From Massilia sp. R2A-15 (GTDB lineage: Bacteria; Pseudomonadota; Gammaproteobacteria; Burkholderiales; Burkholderiaceae_D): a stretch of DNA of 64,000 nt. Each line of letters begins with the position of its first letter. Position 1 is the stretch's first letter. Below are positions 9,216 through 48,752 of the stretch, piece by piece. The stretch covers positions 4,898,001 through 4,962,000 of the forward strand of contig NZ_CP131935.1 in NCBI RefSeq assembly GCF_030704305.1. Direction: 5' to 3'. Below the pieces are notes generated by a model. It made no database searches. It was not told the origin of the DNA and was given only the letters and a program-made list of their open reading frames with translations. The translations under genes and the position numbers were made by a program.

Positions 9216-10210
9216 ACGTCGAACGCCAGCTGGCCGAGCGAGCGCACAGGATGGACTTCTTCCAGGCGCTGCGCCTGCTGGAGAACGCCTATCCGCAGCA
9301 GCCTCGCATCGGCGCCTCGCTGCGTCCGCGCGACGACGCGGTGCGCTTCGGCCAGGATCCGTCGCTGTGCTTCCAGCCTGGCGAGCTGGCCCATTTCAAG
9401 CCGGCCCGCGGCGACGCGCGCGCGCGCCTGGCGGTGAATTTCTTCGGCCTGTTCGGCCCCAACGGGCCACTGCCGCTGCACCTGACCGAGTACGCGCGCG
9501 AGCGCGCCCGCAACGCCGCCGACCCGACCGTCGGCGCCTTCCTCGACATTTTCCACAACCGCATGCTGGCGCTGTTCTATCGCGCCCGCGCCGGCGCCGA
9601 GCCGGTCATCAGCCTCGATCGGCCCGACGGCGACCGCTTCTCGACCTACGTGGGCAGCCTGTTCGGCATCGGCGCGCCGGCGCTGCGCGAGCGCGACCGG
9701 ATCGGCGACTTCGCCAAGCTGCACTTCGCCGGCCTGCTGGCCAGCCGCAAGCGCCCGGCCTCGGGCCTGGCCAGCATTCTAGGCGCCTACTTCCGCCAGC
9801 CGGTCACGGTGGAACAGTTTGTCGGCCACTGGATGCGGCTCCCGGGCGACGTCCAGAGCCGGATCGGCGCGCAGGATCGCGGCGGCCGGCTCGGCGTATC
9901 GGCCGTGCTGGGACGCCAGGTGTGGGACTGCCAGCACAAGTTTCGCATCGTGATCGGCCCGCTCGATTACGCCGAGTACAGCCGCCTGCTGCCGGGCGGG
10001 GAGAGCATGCAGCGGCTCGCCGCGTGGGTGGACAACTACGCGGGCATCGCACTGGACTGGGATGTGCGCCTGATCCTGAAACGGGAGCAGGTGCCGACAG
10101 CGCGCCTGGGCGGCGGCGCGCGGCTGGGCTGGACCAGCTGGCTGGGAAGCCGTCCAGCCCTGCGCACAGAAGGACAACTGGTAATTAAACCGAAAGCCCT
10201 CGCGGGCTAA
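9200..10210 (+). CDS. tssG: TssG (VasB/ImpH) baseplate wedge protein
   Basis: 336-residue TssG, partner of TssF in the baseplate wedge and contact point with TssK. The ATG at 9200 has GGGGAGG upstream and lies inside the end of tssF. Recognisable blocks are M-D-F-F-Q-A-L-R-L-L-E (19-29), the N-F-F-G-L-F-G-P-N-G-P-L-P-L-H-L-T-E-Y segment (about 77-95), and F-L-D-I-F-H-N-R-M-L-A-L-F-Y-R-A (about 114-129). A long open frame continues upstream in this phase, but it is the shadow of tssF. Intact. Confidence 0.95.
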   Translation: MRDPVDVERQLAERAHRMDFFQALRLLENAYPQQPRIGASLRPRDDAVRFGQDPSLCFQPGELAHFKPARGDARARLAVNFFGLFGPNGPLPLHLTEYARERARNAADPTVGAFLDIFHNRMLALFYRARAGAEPVISLDRPDGDRFSTYVGSLFGIGAPALRERDRIGDFAKLHFAGLLASRKRPASGLASILGAYFRQPVTVEQFVGHWMRLPGDVQSRIGAQDRGGRLGVSAVLGRQVWDCQHKFRIVIGPLDYAEYSRLLPGGESMQRLAAWVDNYAGIALDWDVRLILKREQVPTARLGGGARLGWTSWLGSRPALRTEGQLVIKPKALAG

Positions 10211-10224
10211 AACATAAGGGGACG

Positions 10225-12948
10225 ATGATGACCGAAATCAGTCGCGTGGCGTTATTTGGGAAACTCAATTCGCTGTGCTACCGCGCCATTGAAAGCAGCA
10301 CGGTGTTCTGCAAGCTGCGCGGCAATCCCTACGTGGAGCTGGCGCACTGGGTCCATCAGATCCTGCAGCTTCAGGACTCCGACCTGCACCGCATCGTGCG
10401 CCACTTCGAGCTCGATCCGGCCGGCCTGGCGCGCGACATGACCGCCGCGCTGGACCGGCTGCCGCGCGGCGCCACGGCCGTTACTGACCTGTCGTCCCAA
10501 CTGGAAGAGACGGTGGAGCGAGCCTGGGTCTATGGCACGCTGATGTTCGGCGAGTCGCAGATCCGCAGCGGCCATATCGTGGTCGGCATGTTCAAGACCG
10601 CCAACCTGCGCAATGCGCTGTACGCGATGAGCCGCCAGTTCGAGCGCATCAAGGCCGAGCAGCTGACCGAGCAATTCGCGCGCCTGGTCAGCGCTTCGCC
10701 GGAAAGCGCGCTCACCGCCACCGACGGGTTCCAGGCCGGTGGCGGCGCGGCGCCGGGCGAGGCGAGCGGCGCGATCGCCCCGGCCGCAATGGGCAAGCAG
10801 GAGGCGCTGAAAAAATTCACGGTGGACCTGACCGAGCAGGCCAGGAGCGGCAAGATGGATCCGATTGTCGGACGCGACGACGAGATCCGCCAGATGGTCG
10901 ACATCCTGATGCGGCGGCGCCAGAACAACCCGATCATGGTGGGCGAGGCGGGCGTCGGCAAGACCGCGGTGGTCGAAGGCTTCGCCCAGCGCATCGCGCG
11001 CGGCGACGTGCCGCCTTCGCTCAAGGACGTGCAGCTGCTGGTGCTGGACGTCGGCCTTCTGCAGGCTGGCGCCAGCATGAAGGGCGAGTTCGAGCAGCGC
11101 CTGCGCTCGGTGATCGATGAAGTGCAGGCCAGCCAGAAGCCGATCATCCTGTTCATCGACGAGACCCACACGCTGGTCGGCGCCGGCGGCGCGGCCGGCA
11201 CGGGCGACGCCGCCAACCTGCTCAAGCCTGCGCTGGCGCGCGGCACCTTGCGCACCATCGGCGCGACCACCTTCGCCGAGTACAAGAAGCACATCGAAAA
11301 GGATCCGGCCCTGACGCGCCGCTTCCAGATGGTGCAGGTCGATGAGCCGAGCGAGGAGCGCGCCATCCTGATGATGCGCGGCGTCGCCTCGACCATGGAA
11401 AAGCATCACAAGGTGCAGATCCTCGACGAGGCGCTGGAGGCGGCGGTGAAGCTGAGCCACCGCTACATCCCGGCGCGCCAGCTGCCCGACAAGTCGGTCA
11501 GCCTGATCGACACGGCCTGCGCGCGCGTGGCGGTCAGCCTGCACGCGACGCCTCCGGAGGTGGACGACAGCCGCAAGCGCATCGAGGCGCTCGAGACCGA
11601 GCTTGCCATCATCGGCCGCGAAGACGCGATCGGCATCGCTACCGGCAAGCGCGGGCTGGATGCGAGCGCGCTGCTGGAAGAGGAGCGCGCGCGCCTGGCG
11701 GCGCTGGAGCTGCGCTGGAACGGCGAGCGCGAACTGGTCGACCGCCTGCTGGCGCTGCGCGCTCGCCTGCGCGACGGCGGGCGCCCGGTGGAGGGCACTG
11801 GCAGCCGGCTCGAGGCCGCCGCCGCGAAGGAGGCGCCGGCGCCGGTCAACATGGCCGAGCGCGCCGACCTGATGGAAGAGCTGAAAGCGGTGCAGGACCA
11901 GCTGTGCGCGCTGCAGGGCGAGCATCCGCTGATCCTGCCGACGGTCGATTACCAGGCGGTGGCCGCGGTGGTGGGCGACTGGACCGGCATCCCGGTCGGG
12001 CGCATGGCACGCAACGAGATGGAGACCATCCTCAAGGTGGCGTCGCTGCTGGGCAAGCGGGTGATCGGCCAGGACCACGCGATGGAAATGATCGCCAAGC
12101 GCATCCAGACCTCGCGCGCGGGGCTGGACAACCCGAGCAAGCCAATCGGCGTGTTCATGCTGGCGGGGACCTCGGGCGTCGGCAAGACCGAGACCGCGCT
12201 GGCGCTGGCCGAAGCCCTGTACGGCGGCGAGCAGAACCTCATCACCATCAACATGAGCGAATACCAGGAGGCGCATACGGTGTCGACGCTGAAGGGCGCG
12301 CCGCCGGGCTATGTGGGCTACGGCGAAGGCGGCGTGCTGACCGAGGCGGTGCGCCGCAAGCCGTATTCGGTGGTTCTGCTCGACGAGGTCGAGAAGGCGC
12401 ATCCGGACGTGCACGAGATGTTCTTCCAGGTGTTCGACAAGGGCTCGATGGAGGACGGCGAGGGCAGGTTCATCGACTTCAAGAACACCCTGATCATCTT
12501 GACTACCAACGCCGGGACCGACCTGATCGCTGGCCTGTGCAAGGATCCGGAGCTGATGCCCGACCCGGACGGCATGGCCAAGGCGCTGCGCGAACCGCTG
12601 CTGAAGGTGTTCCCGCCGGCGCTGCTGGGGCGCCTGGTGACGATCCCGTTCTATCCGCTGTCCGACGAGATGCTCGGCAAGATCGTCGTGCTGCAGCTGA
12701 ACCGGATCAAGAAGCGCGTCGAGGCGCGCTACAAGATCCCGTTCGAGTACGGCGACGACGTGGTGAAGCTGGTGGTGTCGCGCTGCACCGAGGCCGAATC
12801 GGGCGGGCGCATGATCGACGCGATCCTGACCAACACCATGCTGCCCGATATCAGCCGCGAGTTCCTGACGCGAATGATGGATGGGCGCCAGGTGTCGGCG
12901 GTGCGGGTGTCGGCAGCGAACGGCGAGTTCGAATACGGGATCGAGTAG
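10225..12948 (+). CDS. clpV: ClpV (TssH), AAA+ ATPase that recycles the sheath
   Basis: 907-residue ClpV, the Clp/Hsp100-type ATPase that disassembles contracted TssBC sheath. ATG at 10225 follows AAGGGGACG; an ATG one codon later is also possible. The N-terminal Clp-N repeat domain (1 to about 150) starts V-A-L-F-G-K-L-N-S-L-C-Y-R-A. AAA domain 1 has Walker A G-E-A-G-V-G-K-T (about 239-246) and Walker B L-F-I-D-E-T-H-T (about 308); AAA domain 2 has G-T-S-G-V-G-K-T-E-T (about 647-656) and V-L-L-D-E-V-E-K-A-H (about 717). The middle helical region is intact. The last typical core gene before the cargo block. Confidence 0.96.
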   Translation: MMTEISRVALFGKLNSLCYRAIESSTVFCKLRGNPYVELAHWVHQILQLQDSDLHRIVRHFELDPAGLARDMTAALDRLPRGATAVTDLSSQLEETVERAWVYGTLMFGESQIRSGHIVVGMFKTANLRNALYAMSRQFERIKAEQLTEQFARLVSASPESALTATDGFQAGGGAAPGEASGAIAPAAMGKQEALKKFTVDLTEQARSGKMDPIVGRDDEIRQMVDILMRRRQNNPIMVGEAGVGKTAVVEGFAQRIARGDVPPSLKDVQLLVLDVGLLQAGASMKGEFEQRLRSVIDEVQASQKPIILFIDETHTLVGAGGAAGTGDAANLLKPALARGTLRTIGATTFAEYKKHIEKDPALTRRFQMVQVDEPSEERAILMMRGVASTMEKHHKVQILDEALEAAVKLSHRYIPARQLPDKSVSLIDTACARVAVSLHATPPEVDDSRKRIEALETELAIIGREDAIGIATGKRGLDASALLEEERARLAALELRWNGERELVDRLLALRARLRDGGRPVEGTGSRLEAAAAKEAPAPVNMAERADLMEELKAVQDQLCALQGEHPLILPTVDYQAVAAVVGDWTGIPVGRMARNEMETILKVASLLGKRVIGQDHAMEMIAKRIQTSRAGLDNPSKPIGVFMLAGTSGVGKTETALALAEALYGGEQNLITINMSEYQEAHTVSTLKGAPPGYVGYGEGGVLTEAVRRKPYSVVLLDEVEKAHPDVHEMFFQVFDKGSMEDGEGRFIDFKNTLIILTTNAGTDLIAGLCKDPELMPDPDGMAKALREPLLKVFPPALLGRLVTIPFYPLSDEMLGKIVVLQLNRIKKRVEARYKIPFEYGDDVVKLVVSRCTEAESGGRMIDAILTNTMLPDISREFLTRMMDGRQVSAVRVSAANGEFEYGIE

Positions 12949-45514: not shown

Positions 45515-45653
45515 CACATCCGAAACGCAACTTCGCTCGGTGCCAAGAGCTCGTGCAATAAAGTACTTGCAAGTCATTCGGCAACGTCGGACGACGGGCC
45601 GCTTTCGACCCATTGCGGACCTTCAGCTACCATGCAACCGGCCTGCGCAGACC

Positions 45654-46046
45654 TCAAGACTCTGGCGAAGCGTTTGCGCAAATGTCTTCCAAGATAAAGA
45701 ATTGCTCGCTTTCAGTCCCGGTAACGACGAAGCTAATCCATACGCTTCTGCCGCCTTGGGTAGGCACCTCACAATCAATCGCAGCGCGAAGGCACGAGGC
45801 ATTCCCTTGATAATAGGCTACGGGCACGTCGCTCGACCTCACTGGTAGAAGTTCACTTCCTGATGCATCCGATAGTGCTTGGACCAAGTCGCCCCTTACT
45901 GCCTCGACTGGATCACGTCCGAGCGCCGTTGCGTAGCCATAACGTTCTACTAGCAATTCAAACTGATTCGTCGATAGCATGTCGAGTCCGGCGCAAGCCA
46001 GGTCGCGTAATGCATCCACGTTTTGTTGATGGGGTAGTAGCCGCAT
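45654..46046 (-). CDS. hypothetical protein, array gene 1
   Basis: 130-residue soluble protein of unknown family. The ATG is preceded by GAGG on the minus strand. An N-terminal helical part (L-R-D-L-A-C-A-G-L-D-M-L-S) is followed by a mixed region with S-S-D-V-P-V-A-Y-Y and V-W-I-S-F-V-V. No signal peptide or membrane helix. It is bounded by palindromic elements at 45597 (downstream) and 46075 (upstream). Reads as a real gene from its protein-like composition, not from homology. Confidence 0.6.
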   Translation of the reverse strand: MRLLPHQQNVDALRDLACAGLDMLSTNQFELLVERYGYATALGRDPVEAVRGDLVQALSDASGSELLPVRSSDVPVAYYQGNASCLRAAIDCEVPTQGGRSVWISFVVTGTESEQFFILEDICANASPES

Positions 46047-46074
46047 TAGTCTCTTAATCCTCAGGCATCGGTAT

Positions 46075-46133
46075 GGCTGCTACTGGCCGTTAGCGGACCT
46101 AGTGTGGCCGTCCGCTTGCGACCCGAAGCGGAC
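46075..46133. repeat. 59-bp palindromic element, copy A
   Basis: Nearly identical to 48274-48332; they differ only in the third base pair of the GGCTGCT(A/T)(C/T)TGGCC part. Contains the stem GTCCGCTT-GCGACCCG-AAGCGGAC. It lies between array genes 1 and 2. Confidence 0.85.
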
Positions 46134-46161
46134 TGATTTATCTCGGCATTGAAGCGTCAAT

Positions 46162-46317
46162 TTAGTTGTGTAAATTGAATACCGTGCCTTTGCCGAACTT
46201 CTCTTCGAGCTTGAGTCGCGCGTCGTCAAGGCATTCGGCTACGACATTAACTCGCTTCCCAACACTCGATGGGGTTTCCCAAATTATTGCTTTGTATGTT
46301 TTTTGGTTAGGTTGCAT
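46162..46317 (-). CDS. small hypothetical protein, array gene 2
   Basis: 51-residue protein beginning M-Q-P-N-Q-K-T-Y-K-A-I-I-W and ending G-T-V-F-N-L-H-N, with an A-E-C-L-D-D-A-R-L-K-L-E-E-K-F helix: a simple beta-strand-helix-strand layout. Codon choice and amino-acid pattern look genuine, and it fills exactly one interval of the array. No signal or membrane segment. Function unknown. Confidence 0.55.
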   Translation of the reverse strand: MQPNQKTYKAIIWETPSSVGKRVNVVAECLDDARLKLEEKFGKGTVFNLHN

Positions 46318-46344
46318 TATCACGTCCTCGAGCGCAGCATCAAT

Positions 46345-46405
46345 CGACCGCTATTGGCCGGTTTCAGCCTTCCATAATCGGCAGCTCCCACAACCAAAGC
46401 AGTCG
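46345..46405. repeat. palindromic element between array genes 2 and 3
   Basis: Starts CGACCGCTATTGGCCGGTTT on the plus strand and ends CAAAGCAGTCG. It shares CCGCTATTGGCCG with the elements at 47342 and 47781, but the GTCCGC stem is diverged. Confidence 0.6.
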
Positions 46406-46449
46406 TTTGATACCGCATAACCTACCTCAACGGCGGTGCAAGGCAGAAT

Positions 46450-46818
46450 TTAAATTGAATTCGGATTTGACCAGACTCTGTCACCATTTACTGTTAAGCC
46501 CAGCACCGTGCGAAAAGGGAAAAAATACTTGCCGTCGCGCTGAGCAGTGATGCCGAGTTCGTTGCACGGTAATCCGACAGGTAGCGGCGCGTCGACAGAG
46601 ACCATTATTCCCGACATCCTCACTTCCTCTATCGTTGCCGAAAACAACCGCGTCCGGCACTCGACCCACACCCATTTCCCGGGCACGACGACCACGACGG
46701 TATGCTCCAGCAACCGAAGACGAATGTAATATTGGAAAACGAACGCGCAAGCCGCGACTGACACCACAATCGCGATAGCGCGAGATGCGTTTCGGGCGAA
46801 TTTTTTGACTTGTGCCAT
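46450..46818 (-). CDS. membrane-anchored hypothetical protein, array gene 3
   Basis: 122-residue protein with a basic N-terminus and one transmembrane helix (about 13-32: A-I-A-I-V-V-S-V-A-A-C-A-F-V-F), then a beta-rich domain (V-V-V-V-V-P-G-K-W-V-W-V-E-C and M-S-G-I-M-V-S-V-D-A-P-L). C-terminal domain likely periplasmic. No convincing ribosome site before the ATG. No family recognised. Confidence 0.55.
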   Translation of the reverse strand: MAQVKKFARNASRAIAIVVSVAACAFVFQYYIRLRLLEHTVVVVVPGKWVWVECRTRLFSATIEEVRMSGIMVSVDAPLPVGLPCNELGITAQRDGKYFFPFRTVLGLTVNGDRVWSNPNSI

Positions 46819-46854
46819 ATCACAAGACTAACATGTGAAATACCATATCCGAAG

Positions 46855-46920
46855 ATCCGCTATTAGCCGGGTGCTGCCTGCAGGTGGTAGATCACAACCG
46901 ACCCATTGCAGACGTCCGCG
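46855..46920. repeat. palindromic element between array genes 3 and 4
   Basis: ATCCGCTATTAGCCGGGTGC at one side and GACCCATTGCAGACGTCCGC at the other; diverged member of the same family. The GACCCATTGC string also appears in the element at 45597-45620. Confidence 0.6.
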
Positions 46921-46932
46921 AATAACCTTAAA

Positions 46933-47286
46933 TCATCCCGCCTCTTGCTCAGCGAATCGCGCTATCAACGATCTGCAAGCCTCGCTGCCTACCTTAGCTG
47001 CCCACGCCTCGGCGCTTTGAATTTCAGGCTCTAGTTTGGCTAACGCCTCCGCACTCCAGTGCCGTCGTACCTCGCCAAGCGGAAGCGCATCGGTATCAGA
47101 ATCGATGCCGACAAAGATTAGAAAGTCAGCGTCACTATTCGCTATATCAACCTCATGACGAAGAGCAGAAAGCCGTCGTGAGCCGATCAAGTAACATAAC
47201 TGCCCATCCAGCATCGCCTGTGCTGTCTCGACTACCTGCCGTCGTTTGGAATTGACATAATCGCTGTGGCTTAAGTATTCAGGCAT
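46933..47286 (-). CDS. hypothetical protein, array gene 4
   Basis: 117-residue soluble, largely helical protein. I chose Met at 47286 (M-P-E-Y-L-S-H-S-D-Y); a GTG at 47331 would add 15 residues that run toward the palindromic element. Conserved-looking core: G-S-R-R-L-S-A-L-R-H-E, D-A-D-F-L-I-F-V-G-I-D-S-D-T-D-A-L-P-L-G-E-V-R-R-H-W and a terminal C-R-S-L-I-A-R-F. It reads as part of a conserved family of small unknown proteins, but I cannot name it with confidence. Confidence 0.6.
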   Translation of the reverse strand: MPEYLSHSDYVNSKRRQVVETAQAMLDGQLCYLIGSRRLSALRHEVDIANSDADFLIFVGIDSDTDALPLGEVRRHWSAEALAKLEPEIQSAEAWAAKVGSEACRSLIARFAEQEAG

Positions 47287-47341
47287 ACGGAGCTCACTGT
47301 GATAAGGGGGAACACTAGGTACACGCTGCACGCCTCGTTAT

Positions 47342-47402
47342 GACCGCTATTGGCCGATTGAAGCCGTTGCTGGGCGACCGCTTCCGCCCCGAAGCAGACA
47401 TC
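47342..47402. repeat. palindromic element between array genes 4 and 5
   Basis: GACCGCTATTGGCCGATTGA on the left and CGACCGCTTCCGCCCCGAAG then CAGACATC on the right. Same layout as the 59-bp copies, with several substitutions. Confidence 0.65.
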
Positions 47403-47446
47403 GGTCGATGGCTCACATGTTCGACCACTCAAGTGCAATGACCCGA

Positions 47447-47740
47447 TCATTCATCCTTTTGATTGATCGGATTGCGCCGACGACTCAACAGAAAACCTAA
47501 TAACATTAAACAACCGGGAATGACATACAAAGGCTGCGCGTCATACATCCGATGCGCCGTGTCTATCGCAATTGCACTTACTTCATCAACGGGGATACAT
47601 GGGCGGCCATATTTTTCTATCTTCGCAAACTCGATCGTGAGAACTGGTCTTACTCCGCCGCCGCTAATGGAGTACGAAGCTTGCCAGAATAAAAGCAATC
47701 CGAACCCCATGATTACAAGAAAATCACCAAGTTTTTTCAT
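47447..47740 (-). CDS. small membrane protein, array gene 5
   Basis: 97-residue protein with two transmembrane helices (about 7-27 and 73-91) around a periplasmic loop of some 45 residues containing one Cys (G-R-P-C-I-P-V-D-E-V). Starts M-K-K-L-G-D-F-L-V-I-M-G. A longer frame extends 46 codons upstream through the palindromic element and was rejected. Tail R-R-R-N-P-I-N-Q-K-D-E is cytosolic by the positive-inside rule. Function unknown. Confidence 0.6.
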   Translation of the reverse strand: MKKLGDFLVIMGFGLLLFWQASYSISGGGVRPVLTIEFAKIEKYGRPCIPVDEVSAIAIDTAHRMYDAQPLYVIPGCLMLLGFLLSRRRNPINQKDE

Positions 47741-47780
47741 ACGACGGCTTTCTTTCAATACACTGAAGGGATTCCTCACT

Positions 47781-47853
47781 GACCGGCCGCTATTGGCCGC
47801 TTGATGACGATTGTGCGCAACACTAGGGCGGCTGTGTCCGCTTCCGCCCGGTA
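47781..47853. repeat. palindromic element between array genes 5 and 6
   Basis: GACCGGCCGCTATTGGCCGC at the left, an inner CAACACTAGGGCGGC, then GTGTCCGCTTCCGCCCGG. The CTAG-centred middle recalls CCTAGTGTGGCC in the 59-bp copies. Confidence 0.65.
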
Positions 47854-48234
47854 TTACTGGCGATTGTGAGGTGGGCACGTCGGCTGCCCGCGCACGGCAG
47901 GTAGTCTGCTATTGGGACATACTATTCCAATTTGCAATAAAGTAGCCGAGAGGCCAAGTCCAGCGACCACGAAACCAAGGACAACCACCGGTATGTAGTT
48001 TCCGTAGCTGTGTCCCGGCTCTTTGAATTGTCCCTGACGTATCAAGCTGATTTTCCTTGCCACTCCAATCACACCGACTAAGAAAACAACAACTTGTGTA
48101 AAGGCTGCACCTGCGATCGTCCACCACCCAATGCTATCCGCCGCTTCCTGACTATAAGAAATAATGAGAAAGCTATCGAGTGGAACGATCGCCGTAGCAA
48201 AGATCACAGAAAGAGTCTTTGTACCTAGCTTCAT
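47854..48234 (-). CDS. small polytopic membrane protein, array gene 6
   Basis: 126-residue protein with three transmembrane helices (about 8-27, 36-60, 77-102) and a Pro/Arg-rich tail. The Met at 48234 has GGAG about nine bases upstream; a second Met five codons earlier is possible. Stop codon lies right at the palindromic element border, so gene and element are tightly packed. No family recognised. Confidence 0.58.
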   Translation of the reverse strand: MKLGTKTLSVIFATAIVPLDSFLIISYSQEAADSIGWWTIAGAAFTQVVVFLVGVIGVARKISLIRQGQFKEPGHSYGNYIPVVVLGFVVAGLGLSATLLQIGIVCPNSRLPAVRGQPTCPPHNRQ

Positions 48235-48273
48235 AACGCATAGCTCCATGTAGGCGTGCGAAGTAACGGGAAC

Positions 48274-48332
48274 GGCTGCTTTTGGCCGTTAGCGGACCTA
48301 GTGTGGCCGTCCGCTTGCGACCCGAAGCGGAC
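48274..48332. repeat. 59-bp palindromic element, copy B
   Basis: Nearly identical to 46075-46133, 2.2 kb away, in the same orientation. High identity beside diverged siblings suggests recent copying of this unit. Confidence 0.85.
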
Positions 48333-48345
48333 ATCTGCTTTCATC

Positions 48346-48573
48346 CTATTGTCGCGGCGTGGTATTCCTCAAACGCATTGCGTAAAGACTCAAGACGATG
48401 CTCCCGACAAGACTAAATACTGTGATCGATCCCCAGAAGCGAAGGTTCTGGAGCGCGCGCTCGCCATCATAGATGCTGCCAGCTTGGAGGACGCCCATTG
48501 CGGAGTACAACGCGATTATCAACAGTGCAGCAGCAGCCGACCAGCAGCAGATTCGTTTCGCGTTAGCAGTCAT
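48346..48573 (-). CDS. small membrane protein, array gene 7
   Basis: 75-residue protein with two transmembrane helices (about 9-29 and 47-67) and a short loop (S-I-Y-D-G-E-R-A-L-Q-N-L-R). AGGCG lies upstream of the ATG on the minus strand. It is the first gene of the array in its transcription direction. Function unknown; four of the seven array proteins are membrane proteins. Confidence 0.55.
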   Translation of the reverse strand: MTANAKRICCWSAAAALLIIALYSAMGVLQAGSIYDGERALQNLRFWGSITVFSLVGSIVLSLYAMRLRNTTPRQ

Positions 48574-48752
48574 AGGTAGCGCCTAAGTGGATCGAAGATG
48601 GGTCGCCGATGTGAAAATTATGTCCGCTTCTGGCCGGTAGCGGACGAAGATACGTTTTAACTGATGCGACCGATGTGGTCAGGTCGAGTCTGAGCTACTA
48701 CAACTCATGAGGGGGCCGTTCCGCAGGGCCAGCCCCCTAACCCCATCTTCGA
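48574..48752. other. array border and hairpin downstream of mrcA
   Basis: Contains the shortest palindromic element (48621-48645: TGTCCGCTTC then GGTAGCGGAC) and, at 48710-48738, a hairpin with GAGGGGGC/GCCCCCT arms just beyond the mrcA stop. The hairpin lacks a T run, so its role as terminator is uncertain. Confidence 0.5.

Follow-up and report, generated by a model that had tools for sequence, protein, structure and literature searches.

The window analysed here is a 64,000-nucleotide stretch of the genome of Massilia sp. R2A-15 (contig NZ_CP131935.1, positions 4,898,001 to 4,962,000), and our subject is the interval between its cyaY and mrcA genes, in which seven small open reading frames (ORFs) of 51-130 residues, all on the minus strand, alternate with eight related elements. 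We conclude that the seven units are likely cassettes, exchanged site-specifically by a predicted tyrosine recombinase which comprises a catalytic domain only and is not an integron integrase; we put the probability of this reading at roughly 0.77. The alternation of genes and elements had been noted in a preliminary description of the window, and we found it at the place given there. That description left the choice between an integron-type array, a different cassette-mobilising system and a repeat family that picks up small genes, and the second of these is favoured by our comparisons, since single units are common to otherwise different arrays of relatives and most of their borders fall at an element.

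Sharing of units between the arrays of relatives

Read on the minus strand, a complete element consists of a left site (L, GTCCGCTTNGGGTCG), a spacer and a right site (R, CGGCCANNAGCGGNC). We compared an array with ten R sites in register, from genome G043, with 74 genomes of its genus, and 32 of these matched, G043 itself included and some over short lengths. Single units of this array recur in the arrays of other species at 79-99% identity, and two units that are neighbours in genome G360 have a third unit between them in G043. Comparison at the level of single bases showed that the shared blocks start at (CGGCCA)NNAGC and stop directly after CGGCCA. In an all-against-all comparison of 44 hand-chosen loci, the window included, 26 shared blocks passed our filters, with some units counted in several pairs and a few blocks that hold the recombinase or are not array blocks. 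An R cut (the position after CGGCCA, allowing up to 2 mismatches) lay within 12 bp of 41 of their 52 ends, as against 5.9% of random points.

The left site behaves in the same manner. Genome G197 carries the same 411-bp gene unit twice (99.5% identity), flanked once by 58-nt elements and once by 103-nt elements, and the switch between the two contexts lies at R on one side and at L on the other. Blocks thus switch at L as well as at R, which makes gene units and element units distinct parts. With the switch points of shared blocks marked by a caret, L is GTCCGCTTN^GGGTCG and R is CGGCCA^NNAGCGGAC, so that two kinds of unit alternate: a gene unit (NNAGCGGAC-gene-GTCCGCTTN) and an element unit (GGGTCG-spacer-CGGCCA).

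We collected 198 units from 58 loci, with a median length of 510 bp. Where an ORF covers at least half of the unit it is in the sense orientation relative to the element in 143 of 152 cases and begins 42 bp (median) beyond the cut; counting units with any ORF of at least 50 residues (n = 184), 166 are sense and 18 antisense. Two of the ten ORFs in the G043 array encode GNAT acetyltransferases, and the other eight have no Pfam family at E 0.001. Gain, loss and reordering of single cassettes with borders at the sites is found in the arrays of relatives; in the window it is found for the seventh gene only, at its upstream border.

Pairing and folding of the elements

Loose patterns, which also admit some chance matches, revealed 111 L-spacer-R strings in the fetched loci, the commonest spacers being 19-21, 28-29 and 72-74 nt. 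For the pairing analysis we used strings with exact spacers of 28 nt (23 strings, 22 distinct elements) and 73 nt (25 strings, 24 distinct). L and R can form a stem of 15 positions that is interrupted by a single conserved mismatch, G opposite A at position 10 and next to the switch point, where pairing is rare (0.09 and 0.08 in the 28- and 73-nt spacer sets, respectively). Within the 58-nt class (22 sequences) 78.3% of cells pair, and covariation is 0.171, compared with 0.120 for shuffled alignments (0/500 as high) and 0.099 for the best slid one. Folds of the elements as single-stranded DNA gave mixed results, with z from -0.45 to -4.49 across ten elements. The 103-nt elements are predicted to carry an extended -10 promoter directed into the next gene, the corresponding motif (TGNTATNNT) being present in that orientation in 19 of the 25 strings. 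A scan against Rfam at gathering thresholds returned no match.

Two simpler patterns were rejected as diagnostics. The exact gapped pattern GTCCGCTTNNGGNCGN{15,45}CGGCCANNAGCGG was too strict, as it matched a single genome among 100 and was absent from the window, while the 15-mer CGGCCANNAGCGGAC, used over the class as the sole diagnostic, matched 85 of 369 genomes and is not diagnostic alone, because a reversed-pattern control was equally high in many of them.

A small tyrosine recombinase associated with the sites

A motif scan identified tyrosine-recombinase-like frames in nine array loci, and three of the six that were translated (L044, L048 and L193) form one small family. The protein has ∼205 residues, and its only Pfam match at E 0.1 is Phage_integrase. 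Its structural model (mean predicted local distance difference test, pLDDT, 83.8; residues 1-11 and 13-20 below 50) is that of a catalytic domain without a core-binding domain, and among solved folds XerH, XerA and Cre come closest, while IntI4 ranks 19th. R59, K87, H156, R159 and Y191 do not vary in an alignment of 39 recombinases, and the conservation of H182 is at least 90%; we assign these residues as the putative catalytic set.

Scanning a contig collection with this protein gave at least 553 relatives, of which the best 80 were used, 78 of them with enough flanking sequence. L lies upstream of the recombinase gene in 31 of these 78 loci (-67 to -149; 2.3% in control windows of the same loci). 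R is found downstream in 41, with 35 of its 42 positions between +36 and +55 (2.8% in the same kind of control). The gene occurs in both orientations between L and R, with both sites forward in 23 loci and reverse in 3. Shared recombinase blocks (55 rows, 45 loci) have an L or R cut no more than 12 bp from their upstream end in 39 rows, from their downstream end in 46 and from both in 32, compared with 15% and 21% of random points under these loose patterns. Among 30 loci from a separate draw of 398 Pseudomonadota genomes, a site was present at 15 of the 18 closest recombinase loci (65-81% identity), and 8 of the 30 recombinase genes are flanked by inverted repeats with 13 or more matching bases out of 15, compared with 1% when the flanks were shuffled. 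The link to L and R is thus seen in the closer, beta- and gammaproteobacterial, relatives of the recombinase.

In the genus of G043 an R site on the opposite strand lies 140-210 bp before the recombinase in 12 of the 19 loci that retain the N-terminal part (our own tally, up to 2 mismatches; control 5% per window), and in several of these loci the array continues from the opposing R; among the best 80 relatives the gene mostly points the other way. An opposing R upstream of the recombinase would correspond to the topology of an integron head.

Relatives of the recombinase occur in 56 of the 398 Pseudomonadota genomes of this draw (E 1e-40) and, at E 1e-30 and down to less than 60% identity, on 401 plasmid records out of 72,556. 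Of these plasmids 170 are classed as conjugative, so that transfer between species is plausible. Phage records contained a relative in only 3 of 50,697 cases. Decayed or cut-short copies with internal stops were observed at L195:1155-1942 (G178) and in G018, G027, G057, G100, G306, G318, G325 and G328, and this number of decayed copies suggests frequent loss of the recombinase after arrival.

The array in the window

The features of the array are as follows, in minus-strand order; hydrophobic stretches were judged by eye.

48622..48645, minus strand: element E1, right site only (GTCCGCTAC-CGGCCAGAAGCGGAC), the upstream border of the array, adjoining mrcA
48346..48573, minus strand: g1, 75 residues, hydrophobic stretches (putative small membrane protein)
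48274..48332, minus strand: element E2, complete, with left site 48318-48332, spacer 29 and right site 48274-48288
47854..48234, minus strand: g2, 126 residues from this ATG (131 from an earlier ATG), hydrophobic stretches
47785..47855, minus strand: element E3, right site CGGCCAATAGCGGCC at 47785-47799, left part degenerate
47447..47740, minus strand: g3, 97 residues, hydrophobic stretches
47342..47399, minus strand: element E4, complete, 58 nt (15+28+15)
46933..47286, minus strand: g4, 117 residues, sub-threshold match to DUF2489 (18.5 bits, cut-off 27)
46855..46913, minus strand: element E5, whose left site is GTCTGCAATGGGTCG and whose right site carries one change (CGGCTAATAGCGG)
46450..46818, minus strand: g5, 122 residues, hydrophobic stretch at the N-terminus
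46346..46404, minus strand: element E6, right site CGGCCAATAGCGGTC, left site degenerate
46162..46317, minus strand: g6, 51 residues
46075..46133, minus strand: element E7, complete and matching E2 at 94% over 64 nt
45654..46046, minus strand: g7, 130 residues
45597..45620, minus strand: element E8, left site only (GTCCGCAATGGGTCGAAAGCGGCC), the downstream border of the array

The description of the eight elements as related holds in so far as they form one family, but they are not uniform: only E2, E4 and E7 are complete, and in E3, E5 and E6 either the left site is degenerate or the right site differs by one change. The array has a GC content of 0.52, compared with 0.636 for the whole window. 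Seven matches to the R site CGGCCANTAGCGG (2 mismatches allowed) lie within it, all on the minus strand; on both strands of the whole window the same search gives 27 matches where 11.85 are expected. All four window matches to the hairpin GTCCGCTTCGGGTCGNAAGCGGAC (up to 3 mismatches; 0.00 expected) are within the array. Exact copies of CGGCCANTAGCGG number three in the 5.03-Mb genome, all inside the array, and the 91 matches with one mismatch in that genome are not above the reversed-pattern control (347). Two more groups of the same elements are present in this genome, at L054:182-8851 (1830181-1838850) and L148:7712-8728 (85.7-86.7 kb); E3 matches an element of the 85.7-kb group at 82% over 62 bp.

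The preliminary description had suggested comparing the cyaY-mrcA interval across relatives. We could measure it in the 16 relatives that have the two flanking genes on a single stretch (4 further loci were unmeasurable), and in 15 of these it is 25-838 bp long and free of elements. We therefore regard the array as an insertion into a normally short gap. The exception (L098, genome G031 of another genus) has a 5.5-kb insertion with two-mismatch element matches only, and since it occupies the same gap, this may be a general spot for insertions.

When the array DNA was compared with 245 genomes of the family, 19 gave any match, the own genome included, and most of these were short element matches. 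The fixed presence of all seven genes in relatives, which had been named as an outcome that would speak against cassettes, was not seen among these genomes: the sole gene-length match of high identity outside the own genome was to g7 alone (402 bp, 91%), in G003 of the same genus, and it begins inside the right site of E7. In G003 (locus L111) the g7 copy is followed by a gene which by eye resembles a HigA-type antitoxin, and not by an element. The two g7 copies differ by 16 synonymous and 20 non-synonymous codons, with 18 differences at the third position compared with 6 and 9 at the others, so that g7 looks like a real gene under mild constraint. G058 and G040 contain weak DNA matches to g4 (67-68%), which extend over 186 and 129 bp, respectively. 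None of the seven products scored above a Pfam cut-off or matched PADLOC at E 0.01, and a plasmid search with the array DNA gave no match; some of the products resemble small membrane proteins by eye.

Our search of all six frames for a tyrosine-recombinase motif found none in the window, in agreement with the earlier statement that no integrase is visible there. In the genome as a whole there are eight Phage_integrase matches, in open frames of 392-520 residues that are longer than those of the small family, and the best two resemble XerD and XerC by eye. One Phage_integrase match (G000:C1:90285-90743, L328; frame of 440 residues) is ∼4 kb from the element group at 85.7 kb. As no close copy of the recombinase was found in this genome, the array of the window is likely an orphan; among integrons, too, arrays without a recombinase are common.

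Alternative explanations and points against exchange

It is conceivable, although in our judgement unlikely, that the elements are offshoots, similar to miniature inverted-repeat transposable elements (MITEs), of a small recombinase-bearing mobile element, and that the units move by homologous recombination between the repeats. Recombinase units bear the same L and R ends as the short elements, much like a small transposon, and by eye the 103-nt elements resemble the R-proximal end of the recombinase unit. The short gap between cyaY and mrcA in relatives, on the other hand, implies that the genes of the array arrived too; one and the same gene unit is found between 58-nt and 103-nt elements which are alike mainly in their ∼15-bp sites; and most block ends are at switch points, with the genes mostly in one orientation.

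We consider it still less probable by a good measure that the array is a degenerate integron array, a cluster of attC sites lacking an integron integrase (CALIN) in which attC has decayed and IntI is elsewhere. The layout, the unit size, the mostly uniform orientation and the imperfect inverted-repeat sites are all like those of integrons, and a divergent recombinase heads some arrays. Both hallmarks are nevertheless absent, and this option of the preliminary description fails on them. As that description had already observed, attC cores are lacking: a simple pattern test for the pair RYYYAAC...GTTRRRY matched none of the 8 window elements and none of 48 complete-element strings (46 distinct). 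The switch occurs after CGGCCA and not at G^TT. Two array- or site-associated recombinases scored 21.1 and 29.9 bits against the IntI model TIGR02249, far below its cut-off of 265, whereas a true IntI in locus L051, our positive control, scored 387.2 bits. Aligned with this IntI, five recombinases all lack the IntI insertion and the N-terminal core-binding domain. On these grounds we regard the system as integron-like but by definition not an integron. The integrase of L051 itself (9305-10243, minus strand, genome G094) lies ∼120 bp from an R-type site of the present element family, and both systems may therefore share that locus.

That the elements are transcription terminators or repetitive extragenic palindromic (REP) sequences with no role in gene movement, as short GC-rich inverted repeats between same-strand genes might suggest, is scarcely credible, because exact copies are few and clustered, whereas REPs and bacterial interspersed mosaic elements are typically dispersed in many copies and accompanied by a RAYT transposase (the even spread envisaged earlier was not seen), the elements are asymmetric and oriented, a promoter-like motif is present in most 103-nt strings, and the elements coincide with most unit borders across genomes, for which reason we dropped a terminator role.

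Several observations weigh against site-specific exchange by the small recombinase. Recombination itself was not observed, and exchange is deduced from comparison of sequences. The window contributes none of the 26 shared blocks, and the direct evidence for its own units is g7 in one relative, where the downstream border is not an element. Among the six pairs that are clearest, the NN dinucleotide after CGGCCA agrees at the upstream border in just 3, and it is never the same at the five downstream borders that end at R; from this pattern we place the switch at the boundary of CGGCCA, with NN perhaps a part of the downstream gene. The 103-nt class shows weak covariation (23 sequences; 0.108, a value reached in 36 of 500 shuffles, compared with 0.096), the fold of one 103-nt element is no better than that of shuffled sequences, and with DNA energies E2 and E7 favour local hairpins over the L-R stem. 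Complementarity of the outer arms within one gene unit is not above that of shuffles (305 of 2000 as high); perfect matches were more frequent (8 versus 2 of 49), and the overall difference is not significant.

The distribution of the recombinase is a further difficulty. It occurs in 17 of the 74 genomes of the G043 genus and in 20 of 148 relatives; 26 of these 148 have elements and 5 have both, which is near the ∼3.5 expected by chance. The array-bearing genomes G043, G360, G343 and G336 and that of the window itself contain no recombinase at E≤1e-20. Since it is missing from so many genomes with arrays, we infer the agent from the shared sites and not from its presence. In addition, none of the four site arrangements was present at 25 of the 78 recombinase loci, and in the separate draw the 12 more distant loci had a site at 1; compared with 15 of 18 among the closest, this suggests that the link holds in the closer clade and that the site may have diverged beyond it. 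These distant relatives (L378-L389, 57-65% identity), 11 of which lack L and R of the present sequence, may use other sites.

Proposed mechanism and significance

We infer that the small recombinase is the mover of the cassettes. It would bind the arms GTCCGCTT/AAGCGGAC and cut at the boundary of the GGGTCG/CGGCCA core. Its substrate would probably be a folded single strand, as it is for attC, and units could in this way be excised, inserted or reordered. In autonomous copies the recombinase gene is itself carried by an element unit, between L and R. On balance we lean towards a broader view, in which Proteobacteria possess a second cassette system besides the integron: the L and R sites on which a minimal recombinase acts would be asymmetric and able to fold, gene units would be interchangeable separately from the element units that bear a recombinase or a promoter, and sites and promoters would be shuffled along with the genes.

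Among the bacterial platforms that gather single genes in the form of cassettes, integrons are regarded as the main one. If our reading is true, a system with the same logic but with other sites and a smaller recombinase escapes tools based on IntI and attC, gives bacteria of soil and water a further way to gain and lose genes, and explains the strings of small uncharacterised genes in the arrays seen here. It would also supply a minimal recombinase with which to ask how much protein such recombination requires.

Comparison with known systems

The arrays share with integrons and CALINs their directional arrangement of small, mostly uncharacterised genes, with one inverted-repeat site per gene that pairs imperfectly and with a fixed asymmetry, as well as the unit-wise sharing and change of order between arrays. 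The opposite-strand R just upstream of the recombinase in 12 of 19 loci of the G043 genus may be a further likeness. They differ in the core of the site (CGGCCA^NNAGCGGAC as against G^TTRRRY in attC), in having a catalytic-domain-only protein in place of IntI, in that the recombinase unit is itself situated between L and R, and in that L and R are both switch points, so that gene and element units exchange separately.

Among other tyrosine recombinases, the Xer proteins are the nearest in fold (XerH and XerA), and XerA and XerC are also the best sub-threshold NCBIfam matches. The small recombinase nevertheless reaches only 53-66 bits against a cut-off of 335 for XerC and 37-49 against 330 for XerD, and it is without the core-binding domain. 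Single genes are also bracketed by sites in the pdif modules of Acinetobacter plasmids. With the NCBIfam models NF007371 and NF007370, which we take to represent the FimB/FimE-type tyrosine DNA invertases, the recombinase shares a length of about 200 residues, inverted sites and an occurrence in both orientations between them, but it scores 24-33 bits where the cut-offs are 221-222, and it is associated with gene arrays where those enzymes serve one switch. The simple tyrosine recombinases of Smyshlyaev et al. 2021 (PMC8138268), which are Xer relatives linked to mobile elements, are a further likeness; in the section of that paper devoted to them they usually consist of a core-binding and a catalytic domain, and that section names no catalytic-only family tied to gene arrays. 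In our searches of open-licence papers in PubMed Central we recognised neither these sites nor a link between such a recombinase and arrays. Within the literature searched, we propose that the arrays represent a separate, integron-like system.

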